From: an uncultured Bacteroidota bacterium | GTDB lineage: Bacteria > Bacteroidota > Bacteroidia > Flavobacteriales > Flavobacteriaceae | Assembly: GCA_902586435.1 (NCBI GenBank) | Contig: CACIHJ010000005.1 | Location: 1-64,000 of the forward strand | Direction of reading: 5' to 3' | DNA length: 64,000 bases | Part shown: piece by piece, positions 29,214 through 34,440 of the stretch | How positions within the stretch are numbered: position 1 is the stretch's first letter | Layout: the number at the start of each line of letters is the position of its first letter | Notes under the pieces: generated by a model | What the model was told of the DNA's origin: nothing | Database searches by the model: none | The model's input: only the letters and a program-made list of their open reading frames with translations | Position numbers and translations under genes: made by a program

Positions 29214-29840
29214 ATGAAAAACTTGAACCGTTTAAGAAATTATTTCATTTCAGGTCTTCTTTTCTGGATACCTCTAATTTTAAGTATCATTGTTATTAAG
29301 TCCTTTCTAGAGCTTATTAATAGTCTTATTCCACAACAATACCTACCAGAAGTTATATTTGATTTAGACACTACTATTCCAGGGTCTGGAATTATCTTGG
29401 TGTTGATAATCATACTTATCACAGGAGTATTGGTTACTAATATATTAGGTCGAAAGTTAGTTGCTCTATGGGAAAGGATACTTAATAAAATTCCAGGTTT
29501 TCGAAACATATATAACATATTAAAAAAAGTTTCTGATACTGTATTTAATACTTCTGATAAAAGCTTCAAAAAGGCATTTTTAATTCAATATCCAAGCAAG
29601 GGGATTTGGGTAATCGCATTTCAATCAGGTGATTACAAAGGAGAAGCTGAATCTATTATCGGTGAAGAAACTATAAATCTTTTTGTGCCAACCACCCCTA
29701 ATCCAACTTCAGGTTTTTTTGTATTGATGCCGAAAAAAGATGCATTCGAACTTGACATGAGTGTTGAAGCGGCATTCAACCTTGTTATCTCTGCAGGGGT
29801 TGTGACGCCTAACTCAGTTAAAATCAAGGATAAAACTTGA
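29214..29840 (+). CDS. DUF502 membrane protein
   Basis: 208 residues. Two N-terminal spans (F-I-S-G-L-L-F-W-I-P-L-I-L-S-I and G-I-I-L-V-L-I-I-I-L-I-T-G) are followed by a soluble domain with the family signatures P-G-F-R-N-I-Y, G-I-W-V-I-A-F-Q-S-G and V-P-T-T-P-N-P-T-S-G. DUF502 proteins are widespread and uncharacterised. The lipoprotein gene downstream overlaps by 4 bases. Confidence 0.9.
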   Translation: MKNLNRLRNYFISGLLFWIPLILSIIVIKSFLELINSLIPQQYLPEVIFDLDTTIPGSGIILVLIIILITGVLVTNILGRKLVALWERILNKIPGFRNIYNILKKVSDTVFNTSDKSFKKAFLIQYPSKGIWVIAFQSGDYKGEAESIIGEETINLFVPTTPNPTSGFFVLMPKKDAFELDMSVEAAFNLVISAGVVTPNSVKIKDKT

Positions 29841-30571
29841 GAAAAATAACTACATACTTAAGCATTCTGTTTCTTTTATTCTCTTGTGATAAAGGGGTCG
29901 ATTTAGATGTTGTAGAAACGAGTATTCCTGAAACTGCAGAGATTTATTTGTTAAACAATTTAGATCCTGGTTTTGTATATCCTGAAAATCTTCAATATAT
30001 GTCATCACGAGAAGTCAAGAGTAGTATTTGCCTAGACATAAATAGATATATAAATGTTAGTATTACTAGACCTTCTACTCCTCCTATTGTTGATCCTAGT
30101 AATCCTACTGCAGGTACACCTAACACTCAGGCTTCTCAGAATAATGGTGCAGGTCTTGATAAGCCTTTACAAGGCCATACTTGTCATTCTGAACAAAAAC
30201 GTAATTTGCTTGGCGGTGATTTTGAAAGTGGAGGCATTTCTTCTGATCAAGGTTTTGATGTTTCCAAAATTAGTAAGGGTGAGTTTAACCTTCCTTTTTA
30301 TAATGTCTGTATGGAGGTGGAAAATGTGGGGTCTTCTTCTCGTTTAATTCTTCGTGAATGTGATAAAAACCCTAAACAACAATTTGTTTTTGAGGATGAT
30401 GGTAAAATCAAGCAGGTGAATGATCTTAGTTTATGCTTGACTGCTTCTGCAGATTATAGTTGGTATGGAGGTGGATACAAACCTATTATGATTGTTCGTG
30501 ATTTATTTATGAGTCCTTGTGATGCCTCTTTTTCTAAAAGACAAAGCTGGGGTTTAAGATCGTCTTATTAA
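29837..30571 (+). CDS. Lipoprotein with ricin-type (beta-trefoil) lectin-like domain
   Basis: 244 residues from a TTG start that overlaps the DUF502 stop (TTGA); the lipobox L-F-S-C and good length support it. A Ser/Pro/Thr-rich middle leads to a C-terminal region (about 150-244) with V-C-M-E-V-E-N, Q-Q-F-V-F-E-D-D-G-K-I, L-C-L-T-A-S-A and the end K-R-Q-S-W-G-L, the Q-x-W pattern of ricin-type lectin repeats. It may bind carbohydrate at the cell surface. Motif-based, so moderate certainty. Confidence 0.6.
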   Translation: MRKITTYLSILFLLFSCDKGVDLDVVETSIPETAEIYLLNNLDPGFVYPENLQYMSSREVKSSICLDINRYINVSITRPSTPPIVDPSNPTAGTPNTQASQNNGAGLDKPLQGHTCHSEQKRNLLGGDFESGGISSDQGFDVSKISKGEFNLPFYNVCMEVENVGSSSRLILRECDKNPKQQFVFEDDGKIKQVNDLSLCLTASADYSWYGGGYKPIMIVRDLFMSPCDASFSKRQSWGLRSSY

Positions 30572-30588: not shown

Positions 30589-30975
30589 ATGAAAAAAACT
30601 CTATCAGTTTTATTAATTACTTTTTTTACTTCTCAGCTTACATTTGGTCAAATAGGTTATGGCTATACTGGAGATAAGAGAGCTAATATAGATGACTGGA
30701 GTAAGATGGTTAAAGAATATAGAAATAATGGGCAGAGAGCTCTTGATGAATCTAAATTTGATAAATTAACAGATAGGGTAAGAGAAAAAGTTGCAAGAGA
30801 GCTTGGGTGGTCATCTTATGCTGAAATGGTTATTGCAAGAAAGGAAAAAAGGAAGCATCTTAGAAATGAGAGAAAAATACAAAGGTTTGAGCAAAGGATT
30901 ATCAAAAGAAAAAGAAATGCTGAATTAAGGAGAATTAAAAAAGAAGAACGGTTAAAAAGAAAAAATAAAAATTAG
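30589..30975 (+). CDS. Exported protein with strongly basic coiled tail
   Basis: 128 residues with signal peptide (ending L-T-F-G-Q). The first part of the mature chain has G-Y-T-G-D-K-R-A-N-I; from about residue 60 it becomes a Lys/Arg/Glu-rich helix (R-K-E-K-R-K-H-L-R-N-E and R-R-I-K-K-E-E-R-L-K-R-K). Probably a coiled-coil or nucleic-acid-binding tail exported to the periplasm. No family recognised. Confidence 0.65.
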   Translation: MKKTLSVLLITFFTSQLTFGQIGYGYTGDKRANIDDWSKMVKEYRNNGQRALDESKFDKLTDRVREKVARELGWSSYAEMVIARKEKRKHLRNERKIQRFEQRIIKRKRNAELRRIKKEERLKRKNKN

Positions 30976-30979
30976 ATAT

Positions 30980-31084
30980 ATGGAATTTTTAAAGAGTAAA
31001 AAGTTTTGGAAAATATTTATAATTGCATTTATAGTAGGTGTTATTATAGGTGGTACTTTAGAGTATATTAAACTAACATCATAG
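30980..31084 (+). CDS. Very small membrane protein
   Basis: 34 codons: M-E-F-L-K-S-K-K-F-W-K, then one span (I-F-I-I-A-F-I-V-G-V-I-I-G-G) and a short tail. It starts 4 bases after the preceding basic-tail gene and ends 2 bases before the next small gene, suggesting one transcript. Confidence 0.5.
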   Translation: MEFLKSKKFWKIFIIAFIVGVIIGGTLEYIKLTS

Positions 31085-31086
31085 AT

Positions 31087-31245
31087 ATGACAAAGAACAC
31101 ATATAATATTATAAGTTCTGTATTAATAGGAGTTGCTGTAGGAGTAGGAATGTACTTTGATTTAACTATTTTGGAGCGAATTCTTGTAGTAATTATTTTA
31201 CCGGGTTCGTTTTTATTAATCTACAGGAAAAAATTGAAGAAATAG
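31087..31245 (+). CDS. Small two-span membrane protein
   Basis: 52 codons starting M-T-K-N-T-Y-N-I-I; hydrophobic stretches S-V-L-I-G-V-A-V-G-V-G-M and I-L-V-V-I-I-L-P-G-S-F-L-L-I separated by F-D-L-T-I-L-E-R, and a basic tail Y-R-K-K-L-K-K. Last of the tight series 29012-31245 on this strand. Function unknown. Confidence 0.5.
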   Translation: MTKNTYNIISSVLIGVAVGVGMYFDLTILERILVVIILPGSFLLIYRKKLKK

Positions 31246-31265
31246 TGAGTCATAATGAAACTTCC

Positions 31266-31283
31266 TTATTTCCCGATGCGGAA
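31266..31283 (-). other. att-like copy of the mnmE 3' end
   Basis: Read on the minus strand this 18-mer is TTCCGCATCGGGAAATAA (F-R-I-G-K-stop). The true end of mnmE at 33043-33060 is TTCTGTATCGGAAAGTGA (F-C-I-G-K-stop). 13 of 18 bases agree, in the same orientation, 1.78 kb apart. The surroundings are more G/C-rich than usual here. Could be one end of a small inserted element; chance cannot be excluded. Confidence 0.35.
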
Positions 31284-31324
31284 TATAACCTTCTTTTGAA
31301 TCCCATTACTCATAGTACTTAACA

Positions 31325-31360
31325 ATCGATACATTTTTTTTATCGACGTATATCGACGAT
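31325..31360. repeat. ATCGAY repeats upstream of the DUF285 lipoprotein
   Basis: Three ATCGA(C/T) boxes: ATCGAT at 31325 and a tandem 10-bp repeat TATCGACGTA-TATCGACGAT at 31341-31360. The 10-bp spacing is one DNA turn, as for paired regulator or recombinase sites. They lie 60-96 bases before the gene at 31421. Confidence 0.4.
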
Positions 31361-31408
31361 AGATTTGTACCTGTATTTTACTGTTAACCAAATTGTTGAT
31401 AAATTCCT

Positions 31409-31416
31409 TAATTTAG
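31409..31416 (+). promoter_or_regulatory. -7-like box TAATTTAG
   Basis: TAATTTAG ends 4 bases before the GTG start at 31421, matching the close -7 layout of other genes here. Confidence 0.4.
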
Positions 31417-31420
31417 TGTC

Positions 31421-32986
31421 GTGAAAAAATTTTTACTTCTTTCGGTATTGTTAATTCTTAGCTGTTCTAAAGAGGACAACTCTGCTTTAATAGCTCAATA
31501 TGAACAACAAATATTAAGTTTAAATAATCAAATAACATCTATTAATAATCAAGTTTCTAATCTAACTAATCAAGTAACTTTAATAACTGAGAGTAATAAT
31601 AATTTGTTAACTGAAAATGATAATTTGTTAACTGAAAATGCAGTGCTAACTTCTCAAAATTCTAATATTAACAGCCTACAGGAAGATTATGACTCAATTT
31701 TAAGTTTGTATAATGAATTACAAGATTCTTATGCAGCTCTCCAAGAATCCTTTAACTCTCTAAGTACGAATAATGAAACACTTACTGCATTAAATTCAAC
31801 TTTAACATCTTCAAATAGTACTCTTACTGAGCAAGTTTCAACCCTTACAACTCAAGTTGCAAACCTTACAGCAGAAATAACTGGTCTTGTGAACGGTACT
31901 TCATCAACAACAGAAACAGAAACCACAACAACAGAAACTACAAGTACCGAAACAGAAAGTACCTCTTCAGAGACCACAACTACTTCATATCAACTTACAA
32001 TTAACTCAACTAATGGGGGTAGTACTTCTATAGGATCTGGAACATATAATTCTGGTCAGCAAGCTTCCGTTACTGCTAATCCTGAAGCTGGTTATAGATT
32101 TACTGGTTGGACTGGAGATTTAACTTCATCAGACCAGTCTATTTCAATTACTGTTGATTCAAATAAAACGATTACCGCAAATTTCGAATTATTAGATATT
32201 TTCTTGGATTCAAATGGTGTGACACTGAAAGTTGGTCCAGATGTTAAAGTAGGAGAAGAAATAGAGTATAATGGTAGTACTTACACGGTTGTAAATATCG
32301 CTACACTTAAAGCTATGATTCTAAATAATCTCGATGTAACAAAAGTTATTACATCAAGAATAACTGATATGGGAAAATTGATGTTCGCCCTGGGAAATCA
32401 AAGCTATTCTGATGCTTTCAATCAAGATATATCCTCTTGGGATGTCTCAAATGTAACATCTATGTTTGAAGCGTTCCGAGGTATAGAATATTTAAATGTA
32501 GATATCTCAAAATGGGATGTGTCTAATGTTACTAACATGCAATCAATGTTTCAAGATACTGACAATTTCAATGGAGATATATCATCTTGGGACGTTTCAA
32601 GTGTTACTAATATGTGGAGTATGTTTGCTGGAGCACATGCTTTTAATCAAGATATATCAAGTTGGGATGTGTCTAATGTTACTAATTTTTATCGTTTCAT
32701 GGAAGGAGCACATGATTTTAATCAAGATATATCAAGCTGGGATGTTTCAAATGCTACTAAAATGCAACAAATGTTCGCTATTACACATGATTTTAATCAA
32801 GATATATCAAGCTGGGATGTCTCTAATGTAACTAACATGCAAACAATGTTTTGGCTTGCAGATGCATATAATCAAGACCTTTCTGGGTGGGATGTTTCAA
32901 ATGTAACTAATTGTTATAATTTTTCCCTGAATGCAAATCTTTGGGCACAACCTAAACCAAACTTTACAAACTGTAACCCTGATTGA
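31421..32986 (+). CDS. Surface lipoprotein with coiled coil, InlB-like repeat and DUF285 (BspA-type) repeats
   Basis: 521 residues from GTG. Lipobox L-S-C (Cys15) is followed by S-K-E-D, a fit to the Bacteroidota surface-lipoprotein export signal. Residues 20-155 form an Asn/Leu/Thr-rich coiled coil; 160-190 is a Thr/Glu/Ser linker; 190-257 is a Listeria-Bacteroides (InlB B) repeat (G-Y-R-F-T-G-W-T-G-D); 335-510 holds seven 25-residue DUF285 repeats with the core D-I-S-S-W-D-V-S-N-V-T. This is a long-stalked surface adhesin-like protein. It stands between mnmE and an mnmE-end-like sequence and converges on mnmE. Confidence 0.9.
   Translation: MKKFLLLSVLLILSCSKEDNSALIAQYEQQILSLNNQITSINNQVSNLTNQVTLITESNNNLLTENDNLLTENAVLTSQNSNINSLQEDYDSILSLYNELQDSYAALQESFNSLSTNNETLTALNSTLTSSNSTLTEQVSTLTTQVANLTAEITGLVNGTSSTTETETTTTETTSTETESTSSETTTTSYQLTINSTNGGSTSIGSGTYNSGQQASVTANPEAGYRFTGWTGDLTSSDQSISITVDSNKTITANFELLDIFLDSNGVTLKVGPDVKVGEEIEYNGSTYTVVNIATLKAMILNNLDVTKVITSRITDMGKLMFALGNQSYSDAFNQDISSWDVSNVTSMFEAFRGIEYLNVDISKWDVSNVTNMQSMFQDTDNFNGDISSWDVSSVTNMWSMFAGAHAFNQDISSWDVSNVTNFYRFMEGAHDFNQDISSWDVSNATKMQQMFAITHDFNQDISSWDVSNVTNMQTMFWLADAYNQDLSGWDVSNVTNCYNFSLNANLWAQPKPNFTNCNPD
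32416..32935 (+). repeat. Seven 75-bp tandem repeats (DUF285)
   Basis: The TGGGA(T/C) core recurs at 32438, 32513, 32588, 32663, 32738, 32813 and 32888, exactly 75 bases apart, inside the lipoprotein gene. Units 3-6 are the most alike, so recent copy-number change is possible. Confidence 0.9.
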
Positions 32987-33042
32987 TTTTAGTATTGTTT
33001 ATAACTGTTTAGAGTAAATAGGGTAGTGTTTAGAAGCTTTAA

Positions 33043-33060
33043 TCACTTTCCGATACAGAA
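33043..33060 (-). other. mnmE 3' end, potential integration site
   Basis: The last 18 bases of mnmE, TTCTGTATCGGAAAGTGA, code F-C-I-G-K-stop. In other bacteria the same segment of mnmE/trmE is the attachment site of SGI1-type islands. A degenerate direct copy lies at 31266-31283. No integrase is present in the window. Confidence 0.4.
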
Positions 33061-34440
33061 TTTAGAGAATATAGAGCCTAATATGTCCTGATCTATATCG
33101 ATTTTACCTGTAATTATAGAAATATTAAGTATAGCCTCATTAAGATCTACGCTAAGTAAATCCCCAGATAATCCATCTTTTAGTCCCTTTTTAACAGATT
33201 CAATTGCAGAAATAGACTTTTTAAGTGCATCTAGGTGTCTTGAATTTGAGACAACAACACTATTCTCTGAGCTAAGATTTATGTTTTTAGAGACCTCTGA
33301 CTTTAGATTCTCTACATCTTTATTATCGAGGGTAGAAATTCGCATTAAATTGACTTCTTTTTTATTAAAATAATCATTTAAGTTATCTTCTAAAGTATCT
33401 GTATTAGAGTTATTTAACAAATCTATTTTGTTTTCCACTAGATATATCTGCAAATCATCCCTTTGAAAGGTATTTATCTCATTTTTTAGCTCTTCAAAGC
33501 TAATATCTGACCTATCATATAGGTATATTAACACCCTTGATTTACCAACTTTACTTTTAGCTTTTTCTACACCAATTGATTCTATAGTATCTTTTGTCTC
33601 TCTTATACCAGCAGTATCAATAAACCTAAATTTAATACCATTTATAACGCATGTATCCTCTATAGCATCCCTTGTTGTACCTGGAATCTCTGATACTATT
33701 GCCTTATCATCATTCAATATAGCATTAAGTAAAGAGGATTTTCCAGCATTTGGTTTACCTGCAATTGTAACGGTAACCCCTTCTTTTATTACGTTTCCAT
33801 AGGAGAATGAGTCTATAAGTTTAGATAGTTTAGTGTCTAACTCATCTAACAACTTGTTTAAATCACCTCTATTGGCAAATTCTACATCTTCCTCAGAGAA
33901 ATCTAGTTCTAGCTCTATTAACGACTTAAAATCTATTAATTTCTCTCTTAAAAGCTCTATTTCAGTTGAATAACCGCCTCTCATCTGATCCATAGCTACT
34001 CTATGGGCTTCTTTTGACTCAGAAGCAATTAGATCTGAAACAGCTTCAGCTTGAGAAAGGTCTTTCTTATTGTTTAAGTATGCTCTTAGGGTAAACTCAC
34101 CTGGAGAGGCTAGTCTTACTTTTTTATCTAGAAATGTTGAAATAATTCTTTGCTGTATATAAGGTGATCCATGGCATGATATTTCAACAATATCTTCGCC
34201 AGTGTAAGAGTGAGGCGCCCTATATATAGATATTACAACCTCATCAATAACTTCTTTTCCATCAGAAAGAACTCCATAAGTAAGACTTTGACCTTGAAGT
34301 TTTGACAATGGCTTATTAGAATTAGACTTAAAAATTTTATCTGTTGTTGCTATTGCATCCTTTCCGGAGAGCCTAATTATAGAAATAGCACCTGATCCAG
34401 GAGGCGATGATAGAGCTATTATAGTTCCTTCAGTATACAT
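33043..34440 (-). CDS. mnmE: tRNA uridine-5-carboxymethylaminomethyl modification GTPase MnmE
   Basis: 465 residues. The N-terminal folate-binding domain opens with T-I-I-A-L-S-S-P-P-G-S-G-A-I-S-I-I-R; the G domain has the P-loop G-K-P-N-A-G-K-S-S-L, G3 D-T-A-G-I-R and N-K-I-D; the conserved C-terminus is F-C-I-G-K. With MnmG it adds the carboxymethylaminomethyl group to wobble U34 of tRNAs. Its start shares one base with the stop of the acetyltransferase-like gene upstream. The 3' end may be an integration site. Confidence 0.97.
   Translation of the reverse strand: MYTEGTIIALSSPPGSGAISIIRLSGKDAIATTDKIFKSNSNKPLSKLQGQSLTYGVLSDGKEVIDEVVISIYRAPHSYTGEDIVEISCHGSPYIQQRIISTFLDKKVRLASPGEFTLRAYLNNKKDLSQAEAVSDLIASESKEAHRVAMDQMRGGYSTEIELLREKLIDFKSLIELELDFSEEDVEFANRGDLNKLLDELDTKLSKLIDSFSYGNVIKEGVTVTIAGKPNAGKSSLLNAILNDDKAIVSEIPGTTRDAIEDTCVINGIKFRFIDTAGIRETKDTIESIGVEKAKSKVGKSRVLIYLYDRSDISFEELKNEINTFQRDDLQIYLVENKIDLLNNSNTDTLEDNLNDYFNKKEVNLMRISTLDNKDVENLKSEVSKNINLSSENSVVVSNSRHLDALKKSISAIESVKKGLKDGLSGDLLSVDLNEAILNISIITGKIDIDQDILGSIFSKFCIGK

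Follow-up and report, generated by a model that had tools for sequence, protein, structure and literature searches.

A degenerate copy of the end of mnmE lies, on the same strand, on the far side of a single repeat-rich lipoprotein gene. The question raised by this arrangement is whether the gene between the two copies arrived by integration at mnmE, and if so in what form. The window, i.e. the whole stretch of 64,000 nucleotides that was analysed, is contig 5 of a 1.02-Mb genome (G000) that is 84% complete. Together with 24 congeners of 0.8-1.3 Mb it formed a comparison set of 25 genomes of one genus, and the hosts are ultra-small, tiny-genome marine flavobacteria.

The mnmE end and its lipoprotein neighbour

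The relevant features of the window are the following.

33043 to 34440, minus strand: mnmE, tRNA-modifying GTPase and host of the attachment site (Pfam MnmE_helical, TrmE_N, MMR_HSR1)
33043 to 33060, minus strand: core attachment site, the last 18 bp of mnmE and mnmE-side cassette boundary (TTCTGTATCGGAAAGTGA; codes F-C-I-G-K-stop)
32987 to 33042, no strand assigned: short left end between cargo and mnmE core, without the ~185-bp arm-repeat region
31421 to 32986, plus strand: cargo of cassette 1, a 521-aa lipoprotein with a GTG start (Pfam PF03382, E 5.8e-94, and PF18998, E 2.1e-18; NCBIfam TIGR02167)
31342 to 31357, minus strand: two GTCGAT arm repeats 10 bp apart (31342, 31352), putative integrase arm-binding sites
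31284 to 31405, minus strand: right arm of type A, preceding the distal core and common to G016 and G009 (outer limit set by eye)
31266 to 31283, minus strand: distal core, a direct repeat of the mnmE tail, 13/18 identical (TTCCGCATCGGGAAATAA)
30969 to 31245, plus strand: putative older cassette unit with a small ORF (30981-31085) and the gene of a 52-aa membrane protein (31087-31245), 96.4% identical in nucleotides to G016 over 275 bp
30589 to 30975, plus strand: probable older cargo, with an 82% (aa) homologue in G007
29837 to 30571, plus strand: probable older slot cargo, a lipoprotein with a ricin-type beta-trefoil domain (Pfam PF00652, E 3.7e-7; slot content varies among congeners)
29214 to 29840, plus strand: DUF502 gene, conserved far edge of the variable slot (PF04367, E 7.5e-34)

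An earlier note on this DNA had placed the two copies at 33043-33060 and 31266-31283, on one strand and agreeing at 13 of 18 positions, and the sequence confirms this. It had also described a single gene between them with a coiled coil, an InlB-like repeat and DUF285 repeats. One gene alone was indeed found between the two cores, and Pfam and NCBIfam recover this architecture: a signal ending in LSCSKEDN is followed by a coiled coil, an InlB-like Flg_new_2 domain and DUF285/PARCEL repeats. The best reading of the product is a PARCEL/BspA-like surface lipoprotein. The KED after the lipobox cysteine resembles the Bacteroidetes lipoprotein surface-export signal. The ATCGAY repeats reported near one end are real and are the arm repeats at 31342 and 31352.

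The 13/18 repeat at 31266-31283 is not significant alone. At six further non-mnmE places in the window, one of them within the slot at 31940, the tail is matched at 13 or more of 18 positions, and the match in uvrA reaches 14/18; the warning in the note about short chance matches was right. The 18-mer alone was rejected as proof, given these comparable matches elsewhere in the window, and a 13-base core was rejected as a genome-wide signal, being at chance level. Both results favour an explanation by ordinary gene turnover, in which homologous recombination exchanges genes in an mnmE-DUF502 hotspot and the tail-like 18-mers are there by chance. Since the 13/18 match is weak alone, the case for integration rests on the relatives.

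Boundaries of the variable slot in congeners

The mnmE protein is 72-77% identical to the congener copies and its upstream synteny is kept, with an acetyltransferase gene, a large membrane protein gene, uvrA and others in the same order wherever the contigs of mnmE-bearing congeners extend. On the upstream side synteny is essentially perfect, whereas downstream, as far as the DUF502 gene, different genes are found in every species. A DUF502 homologue lies 3-8.6 kb from mnmE in G005, G010, G011, G015, G016, G020, G021 and G022. Contigs break within or soon after mnmE in several genomes (G006:C11, G012:C56, G017:C30 and G016:C15/C18), as would be expected if the slot varies within populations.

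Neither mnmE nor the neighbouring acetyltransferase gene was found in G001, G002, G003, G004, G014, G018 and G023, although G018 is assembled in 2 contigs and is 87% complete; a clade-level loss is possible. A core of the mnmE-tail kind with a GTTACT/AGATA left half was seen in mnmE-less congeners (G018:C1:68340, G002:C1:7208, G003:C2:57443 and G001:C27:132; loci L140, L141, L144 and L301). Its neighbours there are a large BNR-type gene on one side and a DUF4295-like gene on the other, and the position may be a second site for attachment.

Direct repeats of the mnmE tail stand at both boundaries in G000 (33043-33060 and 31266-31283), and at least eight congeners show a like design. The congeneric 18-mers lie 1.4-3.9 kb from mnmE, with another at 13.5 kb in G009, which has three boundaries in 13.5 kb; two each were found in G005, G011 and G013. 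Across the 25 genomes the degenerate tail pattern TNNYGYATHGGNAARTRR gave 36 matches, compared with 4 for the reversed control. Its matches in G002:C26, G022:C2 and G005:C5:3370, which lie inside ordinary genes or are without arms, were set aside as chance.

The main boundary cores are each preceded, in mnmE orientation, by a conserved arm of 60-145 bp. A typical arm has two GTMGNN repeats 10-11 bp apart, then ~40-60 bp, then the core. Type A arms were found in G000, G016 and G009, type B in G009, G011, G012 and G017, type C in G005, G009 and G019, and a fourth family in G013, G022 and G006; the full arm is missing at a few boundary cores (G011 3703, G013 1847, G007). In type A, 60 bp of arm plus core are 85-87% identical (G016, G009), and homology stops exactly at the core end. 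The GTCGAT pair of G000 occupies the same place as GTAGAT/GTAGCG/GTCGAA pairs at other boundaries.

An arm-plus-core profile built from 11 boundaries and run on all 25 genomes gave zero matches below E 1e-7 outside the mnmE-DUF502 slot. The type A arm of G000, a training member, matches the R1 profile with E 1.9e-15, and strong matches beyond the training set were obtained at G006:C11, G013:C23:8442 and G012:C32. Weaker matches (E 1e-6 to 4e-4) comprise an isolated arm whose core is degraded in G005:C5, one of two sites in G007, and the second-place cores in G018, G001 and G002; G013:C17 and the weaker matches with E above 5e-4 were treated as noise. Judged by this comparison with relatives, the tail-like cores are far beyond chance, and the distal core at 31266-31283 is probably the boundary between cassette 1 and an older cassette.

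The alignments between genomes place the exchange points at these cores. DNA from left of 31266 joined directly to mnmE, which had been proposed beforehand as a check, was found in G016: the mnmE tail is followed there by the 275-bp block, 96.4% identical to the window, and the cassette stands at 96% compared with 71.6% for the backbone upstream of mnmE. The first 22 bp after the core mismatch, with equal spacing in both, and the G016 contig starts only 34 bp inside mnmE. The proposed search for other cargo in front of the same type A arm and 18-mer gave a restriction-modification-like pair in G009 and the 52-aa membrane protein in G016. This 52-aa gene adjoins mnmE in opposite orientations in G010 (L042) and G016 (L145). 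Further to the left in the window, the gene at 30589-30975 has its G007 homologue in a module between two tail-like 18-mers.

Positions 443-924 of G016 correspond to 1-482 of G021 at 91.5%, and the identity begins at base 1 of the mnmE-tail core. Relative to G021, G016 carries a 442-bp insertion made up of a 424-bp cassette, with the 52-aa gene as cargo, and a duplicated core; by this alignment the empty site that corresponds to the G016 cassette is present in G021, exact to the base. G017 and G019 have a common cassette, 97.8% identical from inside the core, behind unrelated arms (cassette 98%, backbone 77%), and G009 and G016 have a 145-bp arm in common up to the last core base and diverge beyond it. 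Alignment ends, not all of which are independent, fell at cores 29 times, compared with 2.6 expected at random positions (0/2000 trials). By comparison of the genomes, site-specific recombination has acted at the core, and cassettes appear to have been exchanged recently between species.

Integrases at mnmE and the probable movement of small cassettes

An integrase for the site, another of the proposed checks, was found within the genus in G008 and family-wide. The G008 enzyme (378 aa, Phage_integrase and SAM-like domains) starts ~190 bp past the mnmE core, and the same stretch codes for an HTH_17 protein and two cytosine methylases. G028 is organised comparably, with an integrase and an HTH_17 protein beside mnmE. 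When the G008 integrase was used as query against 299 family genomes, 29 of the best 30 loci lay within 1.5 kb of an mnmE tail and the 30th at a contig end. Such an integrase is present within ~2 kb downstream at ~20 of 80 public Bacteroidota mnmE loci. The integrase-bearing elements have distal cores matching at 17/18 at 8.9 kb (L281) and at 16/18 at 16.9 kb (L279). In front of each core stand two repeats with a spacing of 11 bp (GTACC, GTTGCC), whose position matches that of the GTCGAT pair. This integrase family appears dedicated to the mnmE end across Bacteroidota. A different integrase, G006:C35, lies away from mnmE and was rejected as the enzyme of this site. Neither the four arm patterns nor the integrase had a match on IMG/VR viral contigs, and a phage or satellite origin was rejected on these grounds.

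The specificity of the arm-plus-core profile for the slot, the switch of homology at the cores and the tie of the integrase family to mnmE all argue against ordinary gene turnover by homologous recombination, to which we attach hardly any probability.

In G000, at 84% completeness, no integrases were seen other than two Xer-like proteins, which weakens the case for an mnmE-specific enzyme in this host. Xer-like recombinases, two of which occur in nearly every congener, could point to Xer/dif-type modules that rely on the host's XerC/XerD for their movement, and there are known examples of modules with dif-like sites at their flanks. Xer proteins, however, are not known to use adjacent arm repeats, and the cores here are mnmE tails with arm repeats. 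Inspection of the cores by eye revealed no dif-like half site, and the site is targeted by a dedicated integrase family; movement by XerC/XerD is in our view extremely improbable.

We therefore prefer a reading in which 31266-33042 is, very probably, a non-autonomous att-bounded cassette: the lipoprotein gene and a right arm between two mnmE-tail cores, inserted by a tyrosine integrase that is specific for mnmE and acts in trans. It is best read as the newest, mnmE-proximal member of a tandem array. At entry, the core of a presumably circular cassette would recombine site-specifically with the 18-bp mnmE tail (attB). The tyrosine integrase, similar to the one that adjoins mnmE in G008, would be supplied in trans and would bind the two arm repeats. 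The incoming core would restore the mnmE end and so leave the gene whole; as every new arrival would land beside mnmE, older cassettes would be pushed outward into a tandem array. Cassettes seem to be added one after another at the mnmE end, almost always without an integration enzyme of their own.

The repeat-rich lipoprotein gene is just one of many cargoes. The cassettes measure 0.4-3.5 kb, with one of ~10 kb, and carry lipoproteins, an HsdR-N protein, a DUF418 protein and small membrane proteins; in one cargo, a protein that weakly matches PD-(D/E)XK nucleases adjoins an N6/N4 methylase. Outside the focal genus, mnmE-tail repeats with lipoprotein cargo and no integrase were also observed at L185 (Flavobacteriaceae bacterium PRS1) and L162, and the integrase-free units of L185 have the same core and arm design.

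The cassette could instead be a relic, left as immobile att-bounded cargo when a larger integrase-bearing element decayed in situ at mnmE. Integrase-bearing elements do occupy the site in G008 and G028, and decay is a described route to such elements, known as CIMEs (PMC5704250). The G000 cassette is also without the ~185-bp left arm-repeat region that is present in G005, G006, G008, G013 and G022, so that it may move only with help, or be frozen. Against a relic, cassettes of 0.4-3.5 kb carry the same arm with quite different cargo, and they are 96-98% identical across species whose backbones are 72-77% identical, which implies movement in small form. We regard decay in situ as unlikely. The earlier note had suggested a small island at the mnmE 3′ end, cargo-only or decayed in the absence of an integrase. 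The congeners support an island at this place, and the cassette does lack an integrase; what changes is that the single decayed island gives way to a non-autonomous cassette, the mnmE-proximal unit of an exchanged tandem array.

Several cassettes point to a further behaviour. In five of them (G005, G006, G013 twice, G022) a core in inverted orientation is found at a distance of 180-192 bp from the preceding one. The ends of the two G013 cassettes are exchanged: a 45-bp end, nearly exact, and an arm of 140 bp stand in opposite orientation, which is what inversion between inverted cores would leave behind. Cargo between inverted cores with swapped end arms was seen in the slots of G013 (L038, 187-4829) and G006 (L046, 187-269). 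This suggests that the G013 and G006 cassettes are invertible. The locus as a whole might then be phase-variable, with cargo flipping between inverted cores to switch surface proteins; the swapped arms in G006 and one G013 cassette and the flipped 52-aa gene in G010 are in line with this. A strong inverted core was sought in the G000 cassette and none was found, and species differ in cargo content, not in orientation only. For G000 we consider a phase-variable locus quite improbable and retain the cassette placed by integration.

Comparison with known systems

In the literature searched, mnmE has not been described as an integration site in Bacteroidota. What would be new relative to that literature is the phylum, the miniature size of the cassettes, the occurrence of common arm families in several species and the dedicated integrase family. 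Streamlined ocean bacteria of ~1 Mb retain gene diversity, for which the mnmE docking site would offer a concrete, testable route. The slot predicts where variable surface and restriction genes lie in many flavobacterial genomes, and its core, arms and integrase may serve for site-specific integration in a phylum for which genetic tools are few.

The closest precedent for the site is given by the SGI1-type islands of Gammaproteobacteria, whose attB is the terminal 18 bp of trmE/mnmE and for which tandem insertions have been reported (PMC3285670, PMC6531882, PMC5704250). The attB, the imperfect 18-bp direct repeats and the tyrosine recombinase are alike. SGI1, however, is 42 kb long with its own int and xis, whereas the units here are of 0.4-3.5 kb (one ~10 kb), mostly integrase-free and in Bacteroidota. 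Membership of the SGI1 family was rejected for the G000 cassette, which holds one gene only, without int/xis or the SGI1 backbone.

CIMEs and the tandem accretion of ICESt1-related elements are similar in being att-bounded, in lacking integration and transfer genes and in standing in tandem at one site (PMC5704250). The G000 cassette likewise keeps attL and attR and has no integration or transfer genes, its attL side being without arm repeats. The literature derives CIMEs from ICEs or IMEs by decay (PMC5704250), whereas the present units look mobile in small form and have recurrent arm families. For the G000 cassette no intermediate stage of such a decay was seen.

The mnmE slot, with repeated insertions at one site and varying content, has the properties of an additive flexible genomic island. 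In the part of the account of Ca. Methylopumilus fGI-2 considered here, repeats of a host-gene end also recur and bound variable inserts in a small-genome planktonic bacterium; the host gene there is tRNA-Lys, with no recombinase named (PMC10872708), whereas here it is mnmE, and arms and an integrase family were identified. The Dehalococcoides ssrA islands are likewise tandem, with direct repeats of one gene's 3′ end and about half of them with an integration module, but they use a serine recombinase and a tmRNA gene and are larger (PMC3146451).

The 25-residue PARCEL repeat, which the G000 cargo carries, has been described as spread by horizontal transfer on mobile vehicles (PMC2996958). The vehicle here is a site-specific cassette, and only the cargo domain is in common.

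Integrons resemble the array in having small tandem cassettes, a site at one end and insertion beside a fixed point, so that the tail core could be equated with attI and the arms with attC folded as single strands. The arms fold no better than shuffled sequence (z -1.4 to 0.8), the integrase scores 31.8 bits against an integron-integrase cut-off of 265, and cargo is found in both orientations. Integron membership, as judged by attC folding and IntI, was rejected with fold z-scores about 0 and the IntI model far below cut-off, and an integron-like array is very improbable. With less than even confidence, we tentatively propose a cassette system distinct from integrons. It would combine an attB in the mnmE tail, right ends that bear arms and an mnmE-specific tyrosine recombinase that is seldom present, and by these means single-gene cassettes (down to ~0.4 kb) would be captured, stacked, flipped between inverted cores and exchanged among species. 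If this is true, the system would provide a streamlined lineage with an evolvable slot for surface and defence genes.
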